The notes under the pieces are model-generated. The model saw nothing but the letters and a program-made list of their open reading frames with translations. It did no database searches and was not told the origin of the DNA. DNA of 64,000 nt. Origin: Alternaria dauci. Its lineage: Eukaryota > Ascomycota > Dothideomycetes > Pleosporales > Pleosporaceae. Below, one piece after another: positions 480 to 38,090 of this stretch (position 1 is its first letter; each line of letters starts with the position of its first letter). The position numbers and the translations under genes were made by a program. Where the stretch lies: the NCBI RefSeq assembly GCF_042100115.1, contig NC_091272.1, forward strand, positions 4,898,001-4,962,000, read 5' to 3'.

Positions 480-2516
480 CTAAATGGATATCCACCTTCC
501 CATCCACGTATCCACAATCTCCTTCGCCTCATCGACCAGACCCATGTCCAACAGCAGTTGGGAAGTACCGCGCACGGCCGAGTCGAGCGCTGAGAAGATC
601 CAAGCGTGAGTGTAGCTTGTGTGCTCTCCGATGAAGATGGACTGGTGCTCGGTCTTGTAGTAGGCGGGCAGGAACAGATCTTGCTGGCCAACGAGTGGGG
701 ATGCCCACGCACCAGCTTGGTGCTCATCAAACTCCCAGCACTGGCGATCGTATGCACCGGTAAACTGCTCCGCAGCCACGTCGCCATGAATCTCTACCAT
801 CGCCCGCTGGACCATGGCCACATGGTCAGTCGTGCTGAGCGCACCAACTGAGCGAGCTAGGGTACCGGAAACGTACGATCCTAAGATGACACCGGGTCCG
901 GTTGAGTTGATCTTGTATGCAGGGTAGCAGACGCTTCCGATACCTGCAAGATCGACTGAGCCGCAGCCACCGATGATGGGCGGTGAAAGCTTCTCCCAGA
1001 AACGCGTTTTGTAGTGTAGAGAGACCTTGCACGACGGCGAGTAGTTCATCTCGTTGATGGCCCGCGACAAGAGGGAAGAATATTCAGGAAGATCCCAGAG
1101 TCTGACCTTTGAGAACGGCACCGAGACGACTGCATAGTCATACTCCTCGCTCTCCGGCTCCATGGCAAAAGGATCCTGGCGCCATTGCACCGCAATCTTG
1201 CCCGTGCTCTCGTCGTGCTTCAGGCCAGTCACCTTGCGACCCAACGTCAAACGGTCCTGAACATGAGGGTAGAAGGCACGAGGAAGCGACTCAAGACCCT
1301 TGTCGATCGTTCGCCAAGTTGTGGCACTGAAGTATCCCGTGTCATACTCCCACATTGGAGCATTCGAGAGGCCAGTAACATAATCGACGATGTCATCGCT
1401 TGCGTTAAGTGCGTACTTCATGTACGCTGCCTCGGACCAATCGAACAGGCCCTTCTCTACCGCGTTCTTGTGAGCTTTGTAGACATTGGAGTACATTTCG
1501 CGTATGACCTCCGGCGTGGTACCAACAAACTCCTCAAGCGCTTCTTCGGCGTGCTCCACAGCCTCCTCGTCCGGACCTTCAGCTGCAGGCAGTGTGTAGG
1601 CCGTCGCGTTGGTCCTGATTTGCGTTGCGCTAGGAATGCGTCCATTCGGCAGACGGAAACCGTTCGAGTTGCCCGGCACATTTGGGCTTGATTGGATCCA
1701 GGGAATGAAGTTGACAGCAAGGCTGCTGGTGTTGCCTCCATTCATTTGGTTGAGGACATCACCGAGCTGGAAAACCATCTTGTGGTCCTGGATCTCTAGT
1801 GTCTCGTTCGTGTCGGGGTAAGTCGTTGAGACAGGGAATCGCATAGGGCCCATCTCCTGATACTGATACTGATCAGGTGTGCTACCAGCAAGGTACTTTG
1901 TTCGGATACGTCCACCAATACGTTGTGACGATTCGATGATGTGCCAGTCATGGATGCCTACCGAATCGAGGAGAAGACTGGTCATCAAGCCAGACATACC
2001 TCCACCAACGATGGCAATCTTCTTGCTCTTCTCAACTGCGACATATGAAGCGTTATTCTGCTTTGCCTGCATGTAGGCTACACCGTCGAACCAAGGACCC
2101 ATCGCATCGGCTACGTCCGAGATCTCCTCCCGCTTGCTTGGTTGATGGTGGATTCTGACAGGCGCTGAGCGACCGATCAATGCGGACCCCGAGTAAGCAT
2201 GTAGGCATTCGCCATGAATCGCATCATCCGGTACGATCCAGACAAATCGCTCAGGTCGACCCGATCGTTTGATGTAGTGCGATGCCACATCATGATGACC
2301 ATCTGCATAGCTCTTCATGTCGCAATCGCCATACACCAGGCGGACCTCACCCTCGAAATCATCGTCTCTGTAGCCGACATGGACGTTGTGTACCGAATTT
2401 GATGTAACGGTCAGGGGCTTGAAGAAGAGGAGATCTGACCGAGAAGCGACCGGGCTGGAGATAGCACCACCAGCTAGAGAGAGGGCAGCTGATGAGGCTG
2501 TTATAAGACCCTTCAT
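480..2516 (-). CDS. Secreted L-amino-acid oxidase-like flavin amine oxidase
   Basis: This is a 678-residue intronless gene. It starts with a signal peptide (MKGLITASSAALSLAGGA..), followed by about 140 residues without an obvious family. The FAD-binding Rossmann motif IVGGGMSGL is near residue 170 and is followed by the IIESSQRIGGRIRT segment typical of the amine oxidase family. A second flavin-contacting segment near the C-terminus reads FIGEHTSYTHAWIFSALDSA. L-amino-acid oxidases of this type oxidise amino acids with O2, giving the imino acid (which hydrolyses to keto acid and ammonia) and H2O2. The signal peptide and extended N-terminus suggest export. Substrate range cannot be read from sequence; a polyamine or tyramine oxidase is possible but less likely. 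It lies divergent to the secreted RidA gene at 4218-4777, with 1.7 kb between the two starts. Confidence 0.92.
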   Translation of the reverse strand: MKGLITASSAALSLAGGAISSPVASRSDLLFFKPLTVTSNSVHNVHVGYRDDDFEGEVRLVYGDCDMKSYADGHHDVASHYIKRSGRPERFVWIVPDDAIHGECLHAYSGSALIGRSAPVRIHHQPSKREEISDVADAMGPWFDGVAYMQAKQNNASYVAVEKSKKIAIVGGGMSGLMTSLLLDSVGIHDWHIIESSQRIGGRIRTKYLAGSTPDQYQYQEMGPMRFPVSTTYPDTNETLEIQDHKMVFQLGDVLNQMNGGNTSSLAVNFIPWIQSSPNVPGNSNGFRLPNGRIPSATQIRTNATAYTLPAAEGPDEEAVEHAEEALEEFVGTTPEVIREMYSNVYKAHKNAVEKGLFDWSEAAYMKYALNASDDIVDYVTGLSNAPMWEYDTGYFSATTWRTIDKGLESLPRAFYPHVQDRLTLGRKVTGLKHDESTGKIAVQWRQDPFAMEPESEEYDYAVVSVPFSKVRLWDLPEYSSLLSRAINEMNYSPSCKVSLHYKTRFWEKLSPPIIGGCGSVDLAGIGSVCYPAYKINSTGPGVILGSYVSGTLARSVGALSTTDHVAMVQRAMVEIHGDVAAEQFTGAYDRQCWEFDEHQAGAWASPLVGQQDLFLPAYYKTEHQSIFIGEHTSYTHAWIFSALDSAVRGTSQLLLDMGLVDEAKEIVDTWMGRWISI

Positions 2517-4217
2517 CGTGGCGTGAACAAGAGGTGGATGTGATGAGGATAGAAACTTGAAGAGAAGGGAAACATCGTCTACTCAAATACCGACCTCGTT
2601 CGACATCACGGCGAGCAGTGCCTTGCAGGCTTACACTCTTTTTTCATTCTCGTTGGTCACTACACCTTATCGCCCGCGTCGTTGTAGGGCGTGGCTGTGG
2701 TCCTCGGATGATGTCGTTGCGACGGCCCGTCCACTGCTGACAGGACAGGAAATCTATGCATTCGGCCGCGATAAGAGCAGTACTGTAGGGCGTAGCTATG
2801 CGCGACTTCGACAAATGCTCTCGTAAGATGGGGTCGCTTCGCGTCCAAATCGCCATTACAGTTGACCCGCAGTCTACCCTCGAAGCGAAGTGCAGTAGCG
2901 CAACGTATGACGGATGATAGTGTGGAGAACTCAACTTGCGGAAGAGATCGGCGTTGCGGAGTGAGGTTTCTTTGCCAGCGGAAAGATAACAAAACATCGG
3001 ATTAGAAAGTGTCCCGGCTCAGCCATGACTAACACTCCGAGTTGTATCGGCAGCGACACCAGTAGTCTCGTATACGACTTCACGATGTCACTGTACCTTG
3101 GACTAGCCACTGTGGTTCTTGTTGGTGTCAGAGGTAATACTCGCTCTCACATTTCCGCAGCGCGAAGGACACATATCAGACACGCACAAAGAACACCCAA
3201 CTTGACCAAGGTTTACCTGCGCTGCCGACTATGTTTCACGAGGCTGATGCCAACAAGAAGTTATCCGGAGTATCGTATTTTACCTTGGCCACGACCCTAC
3301 AGTACGTCAAGGTACTCAAGTGGGGCTATCCAAGAAGTACGGATCGGGCATGCGGTACGACAGAACGTGGCGTGGAATCTTGTCCGGGGACAATATCGAA
3401 AACCCGAAGGGTAGGGCGTGTTCCTTTGCCGTAGAAAAGGTCGGACAGGGATTTGGATCGTCTCGGCAAATAGGGTAGCGAGCGGCAAGCCATGGATACC
3501 CCGGGTGGAGCTCTGCGATTGCGATAACGCAGGCTAGCCTAAAGTCCGACTCTTATCTCGAATCCATGCAGCCTTTATCTCACGTTACGTCAGGACGTAT
3601 GCGCGCTTCGCATTGCACGCGTTAAACGCACAGTACAAGTGCAAAGATATCTCGGCGCCCAGGCGGACTACATCTTCTACGGCCCTTCTCGCGATAGCTT
3701 AAGTCGCTCTGCTCCACAACACTTCGCATGCTATCCTCCTTCCTTTTCTAGTATATTTTGGATATCTACGGATTTTGGAACCCCACGATCACGGCCGAAA
3801 TGGTTGGGCGAGGCGCTGCCAACTTGGGTGTAGTGCAGCTGATATTATTTATGGCGGACGTTCCGTTACCTTGGAGCCGGCGGCGGTTGGAAAACGATTA
3901 CAAACGAGTCTGACTGTATCGTGGAACATTAGCCGTGGCTGGAATCCATCAATTCGGACTGCATTTGGGAATAACATTGGCGGCGAGCCTTACCTGGTGC
4001 ATGGATACTCGCAGCTCTTGGAAGTCATGGCGGTCGGTACAATACGGATAGTGAACTTGACCGGACACGAAAGAGTTGGGAACTGATGATCCGTCAGTAT
4101 TGGCGACGCTTATAAAGCCATGGGCCAACCGAAGCTGATCATGGTACTCATACCATAGTATTCAGTCCTTGACGTCTACATCTCTCCAGAATCTACGTGC
4201 TGTAGTCCGATCACATC
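2517..4217. other. Intergenic region between oxidase and RidA genes
   Basis: This 1.7-kb stretch holds the divergent promoters of the two neighbours. No intact gene was found. At 3085-3480 there is an ATG followed by a hydrophobic leader-like stretch (MSLYLGLATVVLVGV) and two short plausible coding segments in different frames. They can be joined only by assuming an intron and a frame change, so it may be a decayed secreted-protein gene. Confidence 0.5.
4111..4117 (+). promoter_or_regulatory. TATA box of the RidA gene
   Basis: TATAAAG lies 101 bp upstream of the RidA start codon, a normal distance for a fungal TATA box. No experimental start site is known. Confidence 0.55.
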
Positions 4218-4777
4218 ATGGTATCCTTCACGGCTCTCGTTACCACTTTCCTCGCAGTTGCTGGTGCTGCAATTGCCAAGCCGACACCGAAGCTCGCTGA
4301 ACAACCAGTGGTTACCTATCTTGGTACCCAAGGACCTATACTCTGTATGTCACGCAGGTTGTTTCACCTGAACAGAATCTGACTATTGTCAAGCAAGCGG
4401 TGCATGGACTTCCAAGGGCATAGTCTACACCTCGGGAACCGTCCCTTCGTTCAACGGAACGATAGTATCAGGCGGTATCGAAGCTCAAACGGTATTGAAT
4501 CAAGTCTTTGCTCGGCTATTTGTGTCATACTCACTCCAACTAGGCTCAAGTCATTAAGAACATTGCCGTTATCCTCGAGGAAGCTGGCACATCGTGGGAC
4601 TATGTTATGAAGACTACCGTCTTTCTTGCCAACATGTCAGACTACACAGCGATGAACGAGGTCTATGCTGCTATGCTGCCCAGCCCGAAGCCTGCGCGTA
4701 CCGCTGTTGAGGTTGGCAAATTGCCCGGCAATTTTTTGATCGAGGTGGAGGCTATTGCTGCCATTCCGGACTCATGA
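4218..4777 (+). CDS. Secreted RidA/YjgF family imine deaminase
   Basis: The three-exon model is 4218-4344, 4394-4491 and 4544-4777, with introns of 49 and 52 bp. It gives 152 residues. Residues 1-20 are a signal peptide ending AAIA before Lys21. The rest is a RidA domain: VYTSG, the GGIEAQT segment, VMKTTVFLANM, AMNEVYA, KPARTAVEV and LIEVEAIA. Arg127 and Glu142 align with the catalytic Arg105 and Glu120 of E. coli RidA. The usual GPY motif near the N-terminus reads GPI here, so the tyrosine is missing. RidA proteins hydrolyse reactive enamines and imines. Most are cytosolic or mitochondrial, so a signal peptide is unusual. The neighbouring secreted amino-acid oxidase would make suitable imino-acid substrates; that link is inference. 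A TATA box lies about 100 bp upstream. Confidence 0.87.
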
Positions 4778-5172
4778 GGCTGTATAATATGGAAAGAAAA
4801 GAGATGAAATCTCTCAAAACTTCCAAGGTTATATAACACAAGAATCTAAAGCTTTCGCGATTCATACAGTGAGGCCCTTAATCATCATACGGGTGGATGC
4901 CAGTGCTGACCCATGACTCTGCTGCATTGTACTTTGACAACATCCCAACCTTCCGGATAGTGATGTTCAAGGTGGAGAAAAAGCAATGATGTAGATGATT
5001 CAAGTGCGGAAATGGCTCCGCTCACGCATCGGTCAACAATGACGTCGAACATGAAAAATGAGGGGTAGCATTACCCACGATGTGCCACGATACCTGGGTA
5101 ATACCTGAAACACTTCGTCGCGTTGACAACCTGACCAACAATCAAACTGTCAGAGGGGATACACACATCACG
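4778..5172. other. Intergenic, RidA to hydrolase
   Basis: About 395 bp separates two same-strand genes and should hold the RidA 3' UTR and the hydrolase promoter. No further gene is seen. Confidence 0.6.
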
Positions 5173-6127
5173 ATGCCTGAAATGCACGATCACGATGGCA
5201 AGCCCGTGCGCCATCATATGGCACGGGTAAATGGTATCCGCTTACATTACATCACCTCCGGATCAGGCCCGCCTCTACTCCTACTACACGGCACACCTAA
5301 AACACATTACTACTGGTATCACATCACGCCTCTGTTGACGAAAAAGTTCACAGTCATCGCCCCAGACCTCCGTGGATTCGGCGCAACAGACAAGCCACCC
5401 GCAAGCGAAGGCTACGATGGCCGCACGAACGCAAAAGACATGGCCGAACTGATGCACCAACTCGGATACGAAAAGTTTGCTGTCCATGGCGAGGATCGCG
5501 GCGCAACGTATGCCTTCTGCCTCGCAGGACTGTATCCGGAGCGGGTGACGCATCTTTCCTTTTGCGAGATGCTGCTCTCCTACGCGCTTACCAAGCAATC
5601 GTTCTTCACACGCAAGAATATTGCTGCTCAGTACAACCAAAATGGCGTTTGGAACTGGCATATCCCCTTCTTTTGGTTGCCGCATGTCCCAGAGATGTTG
5701 ATTCAGGGGAAAGAGGAAGAGTTCTGGACGCATTTTATGAAGGCTGAGTGCTATAATCCTAGTGCGTTGGATCAGGTGGCCGTCAATGAGTGGGTGAGGT
5801 GTTTGAAAGCACCTGGTGGGCTAAGAGGTGTTTTGGAGAGTTATCGATCGCATTGGGTCAATGTAGATGTCGAAGAGGAGATTTTGGGTAAGGGGAAATT
5901 GAAGTGTAGCGTTATGACCGTGGGAGCCCCGGAGTAAGTTTTCAGTGGTGGGTTATCTGTTGAGATGGCTAACAATGTGTAGGTTCTTTGGGCCGCTTGT
6001 CGAAGAGCAAATGCAGTCTGCTGTGGAGAAAGTGCATATTTCGGAGGTTTTTGAGGAGTGTGGGCATAGCCTAGCACTCGAACAGCCTGAGAAACTTGCC
6101 AACCTTCTTAAGAAATTCATCCTTTGA
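5173..6127 (+). CDS. Alpha/beta hydrolase, epoxide hydrolase/haloacetate dehalogenase type
   Basis: Two exons, 5173-5933 and 5983-6127, with a 49-bp intron, give 301 residues. The in-frame ATG at 5080 would add 31 residues lacking family character, so the start MPEMHDHDG at 5173 is preferred. The oxyanion motif HGTP is at residue 39. The nucleophile elbow HGEDRGA places the nucleophilic Asp near residue 108, and the catalytic His lies in ECGHSLALEQP near residue 282. An Asp nucleophile is typical of epoxide hydrolases and haloalkane/haloacetate dehalogenases, as opposed to serine esterases. The elbow has Glu where most relatives have His (GHDRG). No signal peptide is visible, so the enzyme is probably intracellular. 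Substrate is unknown. Confidence 0.9.
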
Positions 6128-32551: not shown

Positions 32552-34409
32552 ATGTTGGGTCTAACTCAGGTACTGCTACTGTCAGTGTATGCTGGAGCGG
32601 TCTACGCAAAGACTGTCAGCTACGACTTCGATGTCGGCTATGTTACTGTGAGTACTCTGTTCCTAGGTCATGACTAAGGACGATAGGCCCCAGGTCTTGT
32701 CCTCTTCCACTGGGAATCGATGCTAACTCATCACAGGCTGCGCCTGACGGCTTCTCCAGACAAGTCATAGGAATCAACGGGAAATGGCCTATTCCTACCA
32801 TCGAATGCGATGTCGGCGACACTGTATCCGTAACCGTTCACAACAGCCTTCCGGATCAAACGACAGCTCTTCATTTCCACGGTATATGGCAAAAAGGCAC
32901 ACAGGTCAATGACGGCCCCAGCGGGGTCACTCAGTGTCCCATCCGACCCGGAGGCTCTTTCACCTACACGTTCGTTGCCAACCCTGCCGGTACCCACTGG
33001 TACCATGCGCACGAGAAGGGCCAATATCCCGATGGTCTGCGAGGCAAGATGATTGTACACGATAGAGCCTGGGAGAAGAGTCTGAACATAGACGAACAGA
33101 AGTATCTTTCCATGTCAGACTGGTAAGGAAACCCAAACCTGACCATTCGCGCAAGCTCACACGCTACAGGTATCATCGCCCAATGCCAGAGATGATTGAG
33201 GAGTACATGAGCCCTGCCAATACCAACGCCGACTTCGACTCGCCCGATTCTTTCCTTTTCGACGACTCCAACAAGCCTTTTGACCTCAAGTTTGCCAAGG
33301 GCAAAAGGTACCTGCTGCGTATTGTCAACACGGCTGCCGTCGCATGTGCCCGGTTTCATATCGAAGGGTACAAGCTTAGCGTAGTTGAAATCGACGGTGT
33401 GCAAACAAAGGCCAGGGATACGGATACGATCATTATTTGCGCAGGCCAGAGCTACGGTGTGGTTGTACAAGGCAAGAAGGACCCGAAGGGACGTGCCAAT
33501 TGGATTGCGCAGATGGAAACAGGCATGATGACAAGGCCTCCCCCTTCAAAACAGTCACGGACCATCATCGGAGAACTTACCTACAGCGTCTTCGATGAGA
33601 TCGAGGATGTCATCGACGAGATCGGGGACATGATCGACGAGATTGAGGATGAGCTAGAGGAGCTTGAGAATGAGGTAGATGATCTCCTCAACGATGACTG
33701 GACCCCGCCACCTGCCACTATCCTTGACGACTTCACCATGAAGCCTCTTGACGGCCAGAAGCTCTTAGGACCAGTTGACAACAATATCGAGTTTACAACC
33801 AACCAGACATATTTCGACGGCATCGGTACACGTACACCTCTCAACGCGCAGCCATGGGTTCCACCTCAAGTTCCTTCGCTTTACACAGCTTTGACAACTC
33901 GCAGCATGGATCCAGCAACGTATGGTCCCGGTATTAACCCCTGGGTCGTCAAGTCCGGCCAAATTGTCCAGATCCACATGCAAAACCCACACATGTACCC
34001 CCACCCTATGCACCTCCACGGTCACATCTTCCAGGTCGTCGCCAAGGGTGTCGGGTTTTGGAATGGCGACGAGAACTCGCTTCCCAAAGTACCCTCGAAG
34101 CGCGACGGTGTCGTTGTTCCAGCTTTCGGATATGCGGTCATTCGTTTCAAGGCCGATAACCCGGGTGTTTGGTTCTTCCATTGCCATATCGACTTCCATC
34201 TCGTTGGTGGTATGGCTGCGACTATCATTGAGTCCCCCAACCTGCTTTCTGGCTCTGTTCCTGCTGCTGGTGTCGCGCTGTGCGATGCAGGAAAGAAGAA
34301 GTCGAGCGGCAACTGCGCCGGCGAAAAGGGAGAGATCTCTGCGAAGGATGCAAGCACCAAGTGCAACAACGTGTACAACACCAAAGTGCGGGGTGCTTTG
34401 ATTGAATAG
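32552..34409 (+). CDS. Secreted multicopper oxidase, laccase/Fet3-like
   Basis: Three exons (32552-32647, 32737-33122, 33170-34409; introns 89 and 47 bp) give 573 residues. Residues 1-19 are a signal peptide (MLGLTQVLLLSVYAGAVYA). The four copper-binding motifs are present: HFHG near 78, HWYHAH at 119, HPMHLHGH at 439 and HCHIDFH at 498, with a Met after the last as possible axial ligand. The three cupredoxin domains are in order. The domain 1-2 junction SMSDWYH recalls Fet3-type ferroxidases, but there is no C-terminal membrane anchor. Between domains 2 and 3, residues 303-338 form an acidic heptad-like insert. Substrate (phenol, iron or ascorbate) is undecided. It is convergent with the SET-domain gene. 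Confidence 0.93.
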
Positions 34410-36605: not shown

Positions 36606-38090
36606 TCAATACTCCATAGCATCCTCAAACAAACCCCGTAACTGCTCCCTCTCAGCATCGACATTCTGCATCTCTAAGCTGGGTGCTAGCATCAGCACTC
36701 TCGCTTGAGGAATTGTGCCCTCCACCAACTGGTCCAAATGCTCTTTTCCGAAACCAAGCGCCTTCAGACCGCGTGGTTGATCACCGAGTTTGATCAAAAA
36801 CTCTGCCAGCGCCTCACTCAACACCTCTCCTGCACTCTCTGCCTTGACGTTCGAGATATCCACACCGAATGCCTCGGCAGCGGCCAGATGTCGCTCCGGG
36901 TTTGATGCGCCAGTAAACTTGAATACTGCTGGTGCAGTCACCGCAACACTGACACCGTGCGGAATGATGGTGTGATCAACATTATAACCAGCGTGCTTGT
37001 ATCCGGGGTTTTGCCCTGAGATGGGGTAGGACATGCCGTGGCAGAGATGCACACCTGCATTACCGAAACCGACACCAGCGAGTGTTGCAGCTAGCAGCAT
37101 CTGAGATTGCGCCTCGTGGTCATCAGGGTCTTTGACTGCGCGAGGGAGGTACTTGACTGTGTCCTTGAGAGCCTTGAGAGAGAAGATGTCGGAAATTGGA
37201 TTCGCGCCTTGGTAAGCTGGACGATTGATGGGGTTGGTAGGTCGTGGAGTGCGCTCATAATATGGTATCGCAGTCCACGATTCAAGAGAATGACAAAGTA
37301 CGTCAAGACCTGAAGAGGCGTGAACAGCAGAGGGCATGGTACGTGTGTTCAATGGGTCAACTATGCCCAACGTAGGCTTCAAGTTGCGATGAGCGATACC
37401 AGTCTTCGCGCGCTTGGAGACCAAATCGAAAATGGCGGTGCCAGTCGTCTCAGACCCGGTTCCAGCAGTTGTTGGTACAGCAATGAGCGGGAAAAGCTTA
37501 GATGGGATAGGCATCCCCTTGCCCAACGGGGCGTTCACAAAGTCCAGGAATTCTGCCTCGGGGAACGTGGTGTACAGGTTCATCAATTTGGCAGTGTCGA
37601 TAACACTGCCACCACCAACAGCCAAGTACGCATCTGGTTTCCACGGCTTCGCAAAGTCAATCGCCTCTTTTATGCTGTGGTCCTTGGGCTCGACCCTGAC
37701 CTTGTCGAAGATCTCATATGTTACACCCTCCCTCTCCAGACCTTCAATGACCTGCTTCATGGCATCTAGTTTCCTCACATTCGGGTCTGTGACGACCATG
37801 ACGCGCTTGCTGCCCATGTTCTTGAAGTCCATACCCACTTCCTTTGTACATCCAGGCCCAAACCGTATGCTTGATGCCGCCATCTCAAAGGCATATTCTT
37901 TCTGCTGGAATTGATCGAGGGGCGTTGCGAGGTGTCGTCGTGCTTGCTGGACGGTAGCCGGCGATCGGTGGTAGTTGGGATTCGAATGGCAAGGACATGA
38001 TGGAGGGTGCGTGTATTGTACGGTGCGGAGGAGGTTGAGTGCGCGTGCTGCCCTTGAAGGCGCTATACGAATTGCTGTTGAGATCACCAT
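36606..38090 (-). CDS. Hydroxyacid-oxoacid transhydrogenase, iron-containing ADH family
   Basis: A 494-residue intronless gene with a good start context (caccATGG). The first 50 residues are Arg-rich and lack acidic residues (AIRIAPSRAARALNLLRTVQ), as in a mitochondrial presequence. The iron-containing alcohol dehydrogenase fold follows: AVGGGSVIDTAKLMNL for the dinucleotide, then the family signature PTTAGTGSETTGTAIF and the metal-ligand histidines in HASSGLDVLCHSLE, GVHLCHGMSYPISG and HTIIPHGVSVAV. The architecture matches ADHFE1-type transhydrogenase, which couples oxidation of 4-hydroxybutyrate or similar hydroxyacids to reduction of 2-oxoglutarate in mitochondria. Length agrees with that family. 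Confidence 0.93.
   Translation of the reverse strand: MVISTAIRIAPSRAARALNLLRTVQYTHPPSCPCHSNPNYHRSPATVQQARRHLATPLDQFQQKEYAFEMAASSIRFGPGCTKEVGMDFKNMGSKRVMVVTDPNVRKLDAMKQVIEGLEREGVTYEIFDKVRVEPKDHSIKEAIDFAKPWKPDAYLAVGGGSVIDTAKLMNLYTTFPEAEFLDFVNAPLGKGMPIPSKLFPLIAVPTTAGTGSETTGTAIFDLVSKRAKTGIAHRNLKPTLGIVDPLNTRTMPSAVHASSGLDVLCHSLESWTAIPYYERTPRPTNPINRPAYQGANPISDIFSLKALKDTVKYLPRAVKDPDDHEAQSQMLLAATLAGVGFGNAGVHLCHGMSYPISGQNPGYKHAGYNVDHTIIPHGVSVAVTAPAVFKFTGASNPERHLAAAEAFGVDISNVKAESAGEVLSEALAEFLIKLGDQPRGLKALGFGKEHLDQLVEGTIPQARVLMLAPSLEMQNVDAEREQLRGLFEDAMEY

Follow-up and report, generated by a model that had tools for sequence, protein, structure and literature searches.

Why should a filamentous fungus carry, back to back, an L-amino-acid oxidase (LAAO) and a RidA-type protein that both begin with what looks like a signal peptide? 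LAAO-type enzymes yield 2-imino acids and H2O2, and accounts of RidA proteins usually treat them as enzymes of repair inside the cell. The question is raised by a 64,000-nucleotide stretch of the Alternaria dauci genome (34.9 Mb in 10 contigs), C1:4898001-4962000, referred to here as the window. Its first few kilobases hold the two genes in divergent orientation. The LAAO/RidA pair is real and conserved in filamentous ascomycetes. We regard it as probably a conserved exported two-enzyme module of these fungi, for which nitrogen scavenging would be the likeliest role. The features concerned are the following, with the kind of evidence in brackets.

480..2516, minus strand: LAAO-type flavoenzyme preproprotein, 678 aa, single exon (open reading frame, Pfam, alignments)
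2457..2516, minus strand: start of the LAAO, resembling a signal peptide; about residues 1-20, with the end approximate (sequence, alignment)
2130..2135, minus strand: Lys128-Arg129, possible Kex2-type cleavage site at the boundary between pro-region and catalytic part (alignment)
1839..1841, minus strand: Arg226 in the motif EMGPMRFP; a solved LAAO has an Arg at the aligned place of its similar motif (alignment)
600..602, minus strand: Trp639 in the motif GEHTSYTHAW; a solved LAAO has a Trp at the aligned place of its similar motif (alignment)
2517..4217, no strand: 1,701 bp between the divergent genes, present once in the genome (genome self-search, Pfam, motif counts)
4218..4344, plus strand: RidA exon 1, holding the signal-peptide-like segment 4218-4277 (spliced model, alignment)
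4394..4491, plus strand: RidA exon 2, with the Asn63 N-glycosylation sequon from 4453-4455 (spliced model, alignment)
4544..4777, plus strand: RidA exon 3, with Arg127 at 4697-4699 and Glu142 at 4742-4744 (spliced model, alignment)

The LAAO frame runs from 2516 to 480 on the minus strand without interruption and has the N-terminus MKGLITASSAALSLAGGAISS. The RidA gene on the plus strand (4218-4777) is not a single frame: two short GT-AG introns (4345-4393 and 4492-4543) are removed to give a protein of 152 aa, which begins MVSFTALVTTFLAVAGAAIAK..., ends in PDS before the stop and aligns end to end with annotated relatives. The preliminary description of this DNA, an LAAO-like flavoenzyme divergent from a RidA gene, is thereby borne out, with a single PF01593 frame on one side and a spliced PF01042 gene on the other. 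Among the matches listed, the closest named relatives of both proteins belong to Alternaria: RidA is 93% identical to that of Alternaria incomplexa, and the LAAO 88% to that of A. infectoria and 92% to a metagenome protein.

Linkage of the two genes was studied across fungi with three homologue lists, which held the best 120 of 626, 591 and 502 matches, respectively. Counting by eye the named species represented among both the RidA and the LAAO rows gave 21. Parastagonospora nodorum, represented by rows from many contigs and strains, was undecidable and was left out, and contigs of equal size in the RidA and LAAO lists were taken as identical. The preliminary description had called for a search of related genomes, and its outcome is positive: among the matches listed, LAAO and RidA are on one contig in 18 of the 20 determinable species, against an expectation of 0.84 for randomly placed genes in a genome assumed to measure 35 Mb. 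Since the species are related, these 18 do not stand for as many independent events. Four of the shared contigs are shorter than 150 kb (Delitschia confertaspora, 21.6 kb; Setomelanomma holmii, 32 kb; Polyplosphaeria fusca, 87 kb; Lojkania enalia, 148 kb). Positional-looking gene numbers exist for both genes in five linked species; they are consecutive in four (Rhinocladiella mackenziei, Cyphellophora europaea, Plenodomus lindquistii and Sarocladium strictum) and two apart in P. biglobosus. The other 13 carry either no number or DRAFT ids, another kind of protein number that we take to be non-positional. Additionally, four further contigs (8,448, 25,029, 68,248 and 73,845 bases) carry rows in both the RidA and the LAAO lists. 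Six linked species that were looked up belong to three classes, Dothideomycetes, Eurotiomycetes and Sordariomycetes, and a signal-bearing RidA occurs in the Leotiomycete Phlyctema vagabunda (P0066). Orientation and distance were read in the window, where the two genes are adjacent and divergent.

Concerning its chemistry, the RidA gene product belongs to PF01042 (E=1.2e-31, 109.7 bits against a gathering cut-off of 27.3). Arg127 and Glu142, correctly numbered in the preliminary description, are invariant in 27 of 27 aligned sequences (that of the window and 26 relatives), and the Glu of RidA proteins has a catalytic role. At the position equivalent to Arg127, Arg105 of RidA is held to decide deaminase activity (PMC5619798), and in the plant protein it is to this conserved Arg that the keto acid binds (PMC4960622), according to the available parts of these sources. 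One relative (P0001) was modelled with the Rid fold (pLDDT 81), with YabJ and RidA as the nearest solved structures. Hydrolysis of LAAO-made imines by RidA proteins, which the preliminary description had taken as known, has been seen in vitro for those of other organisms: in a semicarbazide assay, RidA and Rid2 of Salmonella perform it and Rid7 does not (PMC4433059, in the part available). Some family proteins are described as ribonucleases (PMC6435465, in part), and the secreted RidA could be an L-PSP-type ribonuclease or another moonlighting protein in place of an imine deaminase, with a linkage that is historical. The family scores of its relatives, just under the NCBI cut-off, would fit this, but linkage to an imine-producing enzyme type in three classes, together with an Arg and a Glu invariant in all 27 sequences, makes this highly improbable. 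The same two residues bear on the idea that RidA is mainly structural or stabilising, binding the LAAO in an extracellular complex as is reported for the M-alpha and M-beta subunits of the Chlamydomonas enzyme, and protecting or holding it without separate catalysis. A complex of a catalytic LAAO subunit with a RidA protein termed non-catalytic is reported from the Chlamydomonas periplasm (PMC5053998, in the part available), and the pairing of the genes fits a complex as well as a pathway; a purely structural subunit, however, would not need an invariant Arg127 and Glu142, and we consider this unlikely.

Both the LAAO and the RidA are probably exported, judging by marks in their sequences. Signal-peptide-like segments, proposed earlier for each protein, are seen on both. 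The RidA N-terminus is strongly hydrophobic, with a top 10-residue mean hydropathy of 2.0-2.9 across the 27 aligned sequences, a range given without a formal negative control. The 26 relatives were picked from 120 listed rows, 61 of which have 140-160 aa and a Met start. Many of the remaining rows are fragments or apparently intron-blind metagenome models starting inside the gene, and some rows, P0105 included, have no signal-like start. The Asn63 N-glycosylation sequon is kept in 27 of 27 aligned RidA sequences, whereas the canonical RidA of the A. dauci genome has none at the aligned place. In the LAAO, the signal-like start is followed by an N-terminal pro-region that ends in Lys-Arg, and dibasic sites are Kex2 cleavage sites. 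This dibasic pair is invariant in 21 of 21 aligned oxidases (the window's included). Among 120 oxidase rows of 655-700 aa, 109 have KR within residues 119-150, and the 11 others have RR or RRR (six) or a shifted or altered sequence (five). The exported two-step pair of the preliminary description has thus gained conserved linkage and several marks of the secretory route (signal-like starts, sequon, dibasic site); secretion itself, glycosylation, cleavage, the substrates, imine hydrolysis by the window's RidA and the biological role are what we infer. Other proteins were considered as members of this secreted branch and rejected: two PF01042 proteins of Aspergillus niger culture medium, placed among proteins without signal peptide (PMC10371888), and the marine-bacterial RidA OngD, whose pathway is described as intracytoplasmic (PMC9537276), each in the parts of these papers that were available.

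The oxidase itself is well placed. It scores 136.3 bits with PF01593 (E=2.4e-39, cut-off 19.8), LAAOs and L-lysine oxidases rank first among the solved proteins related to it by sequence, and it aligns with a solved LAAO around the substrate-binding Arg and the GEHT...W motif, which together assign it to the family. Arg226, the presumed substrate-binding residue, and Trp639 of the GEHT...W motif are invariant in the 21 aligned oxidases (that of the window included). The structure model is poor (mean pLDDT 50), being confident only in the N-terminal beta-rich pro-region and some stretches, and the predicted fold would add nothing beyond LAAOs as top-ranked matches.

If these elements work together, the LAAO would enter the secretory route by its signal peptide and would probably be cut after Lys128-Arg129, with removal of the pro-region. 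It would then oxidise extracellular L-amino acids to 2-imino acids and H2O2, and the secreted, probably glycosylated RidA would immediately turn the imines into 2-keto acids and ammonia by hydrolysis. Taken together, the two steps would give a fast and complete release of ammonium and keto acids outside the cell or at the wall, with no lingering imine and with H2O2 as co-product. This offers a simple hypothesis for complete ammonium release by LAAO-secreting fungi, directly testable with the two proteins, and a secreted RidA branch tied genetically to an LAAO in three fungal classes would make imine clearance a regular extracellular step. H2O2 is a general product of LAAOs and both proteins look exported, which would also suit an LAAO that acts as an H2O2-based antagonist of competitors or hosts, with RidA there only to spare the oxidase or its producer harm from imines. 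However, the closest adjacent genes that were tested, one for a TauD-type dioxygenase and one for an alpha/beta hydrolase, point neither to attack nor to H2O2 handling, and we hold this to be very unlikely.

Several observations weigh against the exported nitrogen-scavenging module. Two of the 20 determinable species, Stachybotrys elegans and Ampelomyces quisqualis, have the genes on separate contigs, and several of the other shared contigs are megabases long and singly weak as evidence. In Paramyrothecium foliicola, a further PF01042 protein on its contig (P0105) has no obvious signal peptide. The fungal secreted RidA has GPI where the canonical motif is GPY, and its substrate range may therefore differ. 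Three relatives, P0001 (97.4 bits), P0045 (98.5) and P0063 (93.3), miss the 106.25-bit cut-off of TIGR00004, the NCBIfam RidA subfamily, although it is the best family for each of them; the scan covered these three relatives and used models built for bacterial and archaeal genomes. With the catalytic Arg and the Rid fold of the P0001 model on one side and GPI and the sub-cut-off scores on the other, the window's protein is therefore best called RidA-like and paired with a likely imine source. Imines also hydrolyse spontaneously, so the need for a RidA is not self-evident. Finally, enrichment of nitrogen-control (GATA-type) sites between the genes is not convincing. HGATAR motifs number four in the 601 bp before the LAAO (window mean 1.24; four is reached in 6% of comparison windows), three in the middle 500 bp of the intergenic region (11% of comparison windows) and one in the 600 bp before RidA, and PacC-type and CGG-N6-CCG motifs are not enriched in that region.

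The 1,701 bp that separate the divergent genes have themselves as their sole match in the genome, and none of four open reading frames (ORFs) from the stretch matched a Pfam family. An extra gene between the LAAO and RidA was rejected on these grounds, and the genome self-search and the Pfam test of the four ORFs gave no sign of a transposon. Next to RidA lies an alpha/beta hydrolase gene (PF00561, window 5080-5937), and beyond the LAAO, some 0.3-1.0 kb ahead of position 1 of the window, there is a frame for a TauD/TfdA-type dioxygenase (L023:7972-8727); neither has a known link to the pair. Further away, a multicopper oxidase gene and an iron-containing alcohol dehydrogenase gene (window 33183-34409 and 36606-38090) look ordinary.

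The A. dauci genome contains eight PF01042 places, among them the window's RidA. The best-scoring of the eight, on contig C2, is the canonical RidA: 131 aa, starting MSDIKKIHT, with no signal peptide by eye, and 39% identical to the window's protein over 94 residues. None of the other six resembled the secreted RidA in the translations read around them, which lack gene models and established N-termini. Apart from the window's LAAO there is one more LAAO-type gene (C7:259625-261710), which is 51% identical over its main exon, apparently contains an intron and has a signal-like start. None of the eight PF01042 places is on C7, and hence only one of the two oxidases is paired.

How new is the arrangement? 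The preliminary description saw novelty in an exported RidA linked to the enzyme that makes its substrate, and this claim fails. In Chlamydomonas reinhardtii, periplasmic LAO1 and LAO2/RIDA are encoded in a gene cluster, and Gluconacetobacter diazotrophicus has a lao-cccA-ridA operon (GDI2456-2454), as the available parts of two reports state (PMC10805672, PMC5053998). Signal-bearing RidAs are also found on bacterial plasmids, in operons with an LAAO and a cytochrome c. A plasmid survey listed 15 of 63 LAAO-matching records, from which nine loci were examined by non-random choice. A RidA of one type follows the oxidase in four of them (Sulfitobacter indolifex, Microvirga ossetica, M. lotononidis and Paracoccus marcusii), with its own signal-peptide-like start in all three N-termini read (L014, L016 and L019); the locus L018 is unannotated and its RidA is known by match alone. 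Nothing of that RidA type was matched at the five other loci, two of which have a cytochrome c next to the oxidase. The operon of LAAO, cytochrome c and RidA is already described in print, where the parts available do not stress export of RidA. For fungi, no paper on an LAAO-RidA pair was found among the matches listed from the open-licence literature, outside which subscription papers mostly lie, so that this is weak evidence of absence. As far as seen, the pair is new for fungi, while its kind is already known from algae and bacteria. One in-planta lead was set aside: the genes strongly up-regulated by Leptosphaeria in the plant include L-PSP genes and one of PF01593 (PMC4113356, in part), but the L-PSP Pfam E-values (~1e-10) and the gene numbers give no identification with the pair, and therefore we do not use it as evidence.

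The bacterial exported RidAs are 29-32% identical to the window's protein (three proteins, compared pairwise), below the 39% that the latter shares with the canonical RidA of A. dauci, which suggests that the fungal and bacterial exported proteins were recruited separately. A close bacterial origin of the LAAO was rejected, since the scan of genome contigs gave one distant locus (26% identity) among 62 pattern stretches; a phmmer search there, with two exported RidAs of bacteria as queries, revealed no RidA-type ORF of at least 100 aa. Viral contigs scanned with the RidA alignment gave no match. Tentatively, and with rather less than even confidence, we suggest that modules of an exported oxidase and an exported RidA arose separately in bacteria, green algae and filamentous fungi, the fungal form being an old, widely kept extracellular machine, possibly a complex, with a RidA sub-branch tuned to its partner's imines. 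If this is true, RidA chemistry would serve a public function outside the cell as well as repair within it.

The pair could also be an extracellular step from tryptophan to indole-3-pyruvate that feeds auxin (indole-3-acetic acid, IAA) for use in plant contact. Many of the listed genera are plant-associated, but among the carriers are Rhinocladiella mackenziei and Cyphellophora europaea, two species without an obvious plant role. Besides, the sole relative with a specific enzyme name is called a pentosidine oxidase (P0267). We think such a role quite unlikely, even though the analogous Chlamydomonas and Gluconacetobacter pairs are both tied to IAA from tryptophan in the available parts of the reports (PMC10805672, PMC5053998). 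The fungal pair also offers a possible common chemistry by which algae, bacteria and fungi could make indole-3-pyruvate and auxin outside the cell.

Compared with known systems, the fungal RidA is like the archetypal RidA/YabJ/Mmf1 proteins (PF01042) in its fold (P0001 model) and in its catalytic Arg and Glu, and differs in being signal-bearing and sequon-bearing, in having GPI for GPY and in relatives that score under the TIGR00004 cut-off. Concerning the oxidase, the L-lysine alpha-oxidase precursor 7d4c shares PF01593 and is a distant relative, while the Sarocladium pentosidine oxidase P0267 is 58% identical and belongs to the same LAAO clade, with PF01593 and an N-terminal pro-region like that of the window's LAAO. 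The term pentosidine oxidase was not found among the open-licence literature matches listed (10 of 954). P0267 is a record without contig; in Sarocladium strictum, the gene number of its relative P0256 adjoins the number of a secreted RidA (P0071). The bacterial operons likewise place an LAAO-type oxidase next to a RidA, but include a cytochrome c. Finally, Chlamydomonas LAO1 and LAO2/RIDA, an exported LAAO and RidA with clustered genes, resemble the probably exported fungal pair, in a system that, as described in part of the sources, deaminates extracellular amino acids under nitrogen limitation (PMC10805672, PMC5053998); this M-LAAO differs in belonging to a green alga and in being described as a complex, and the likeness is drawn from published descriptions.

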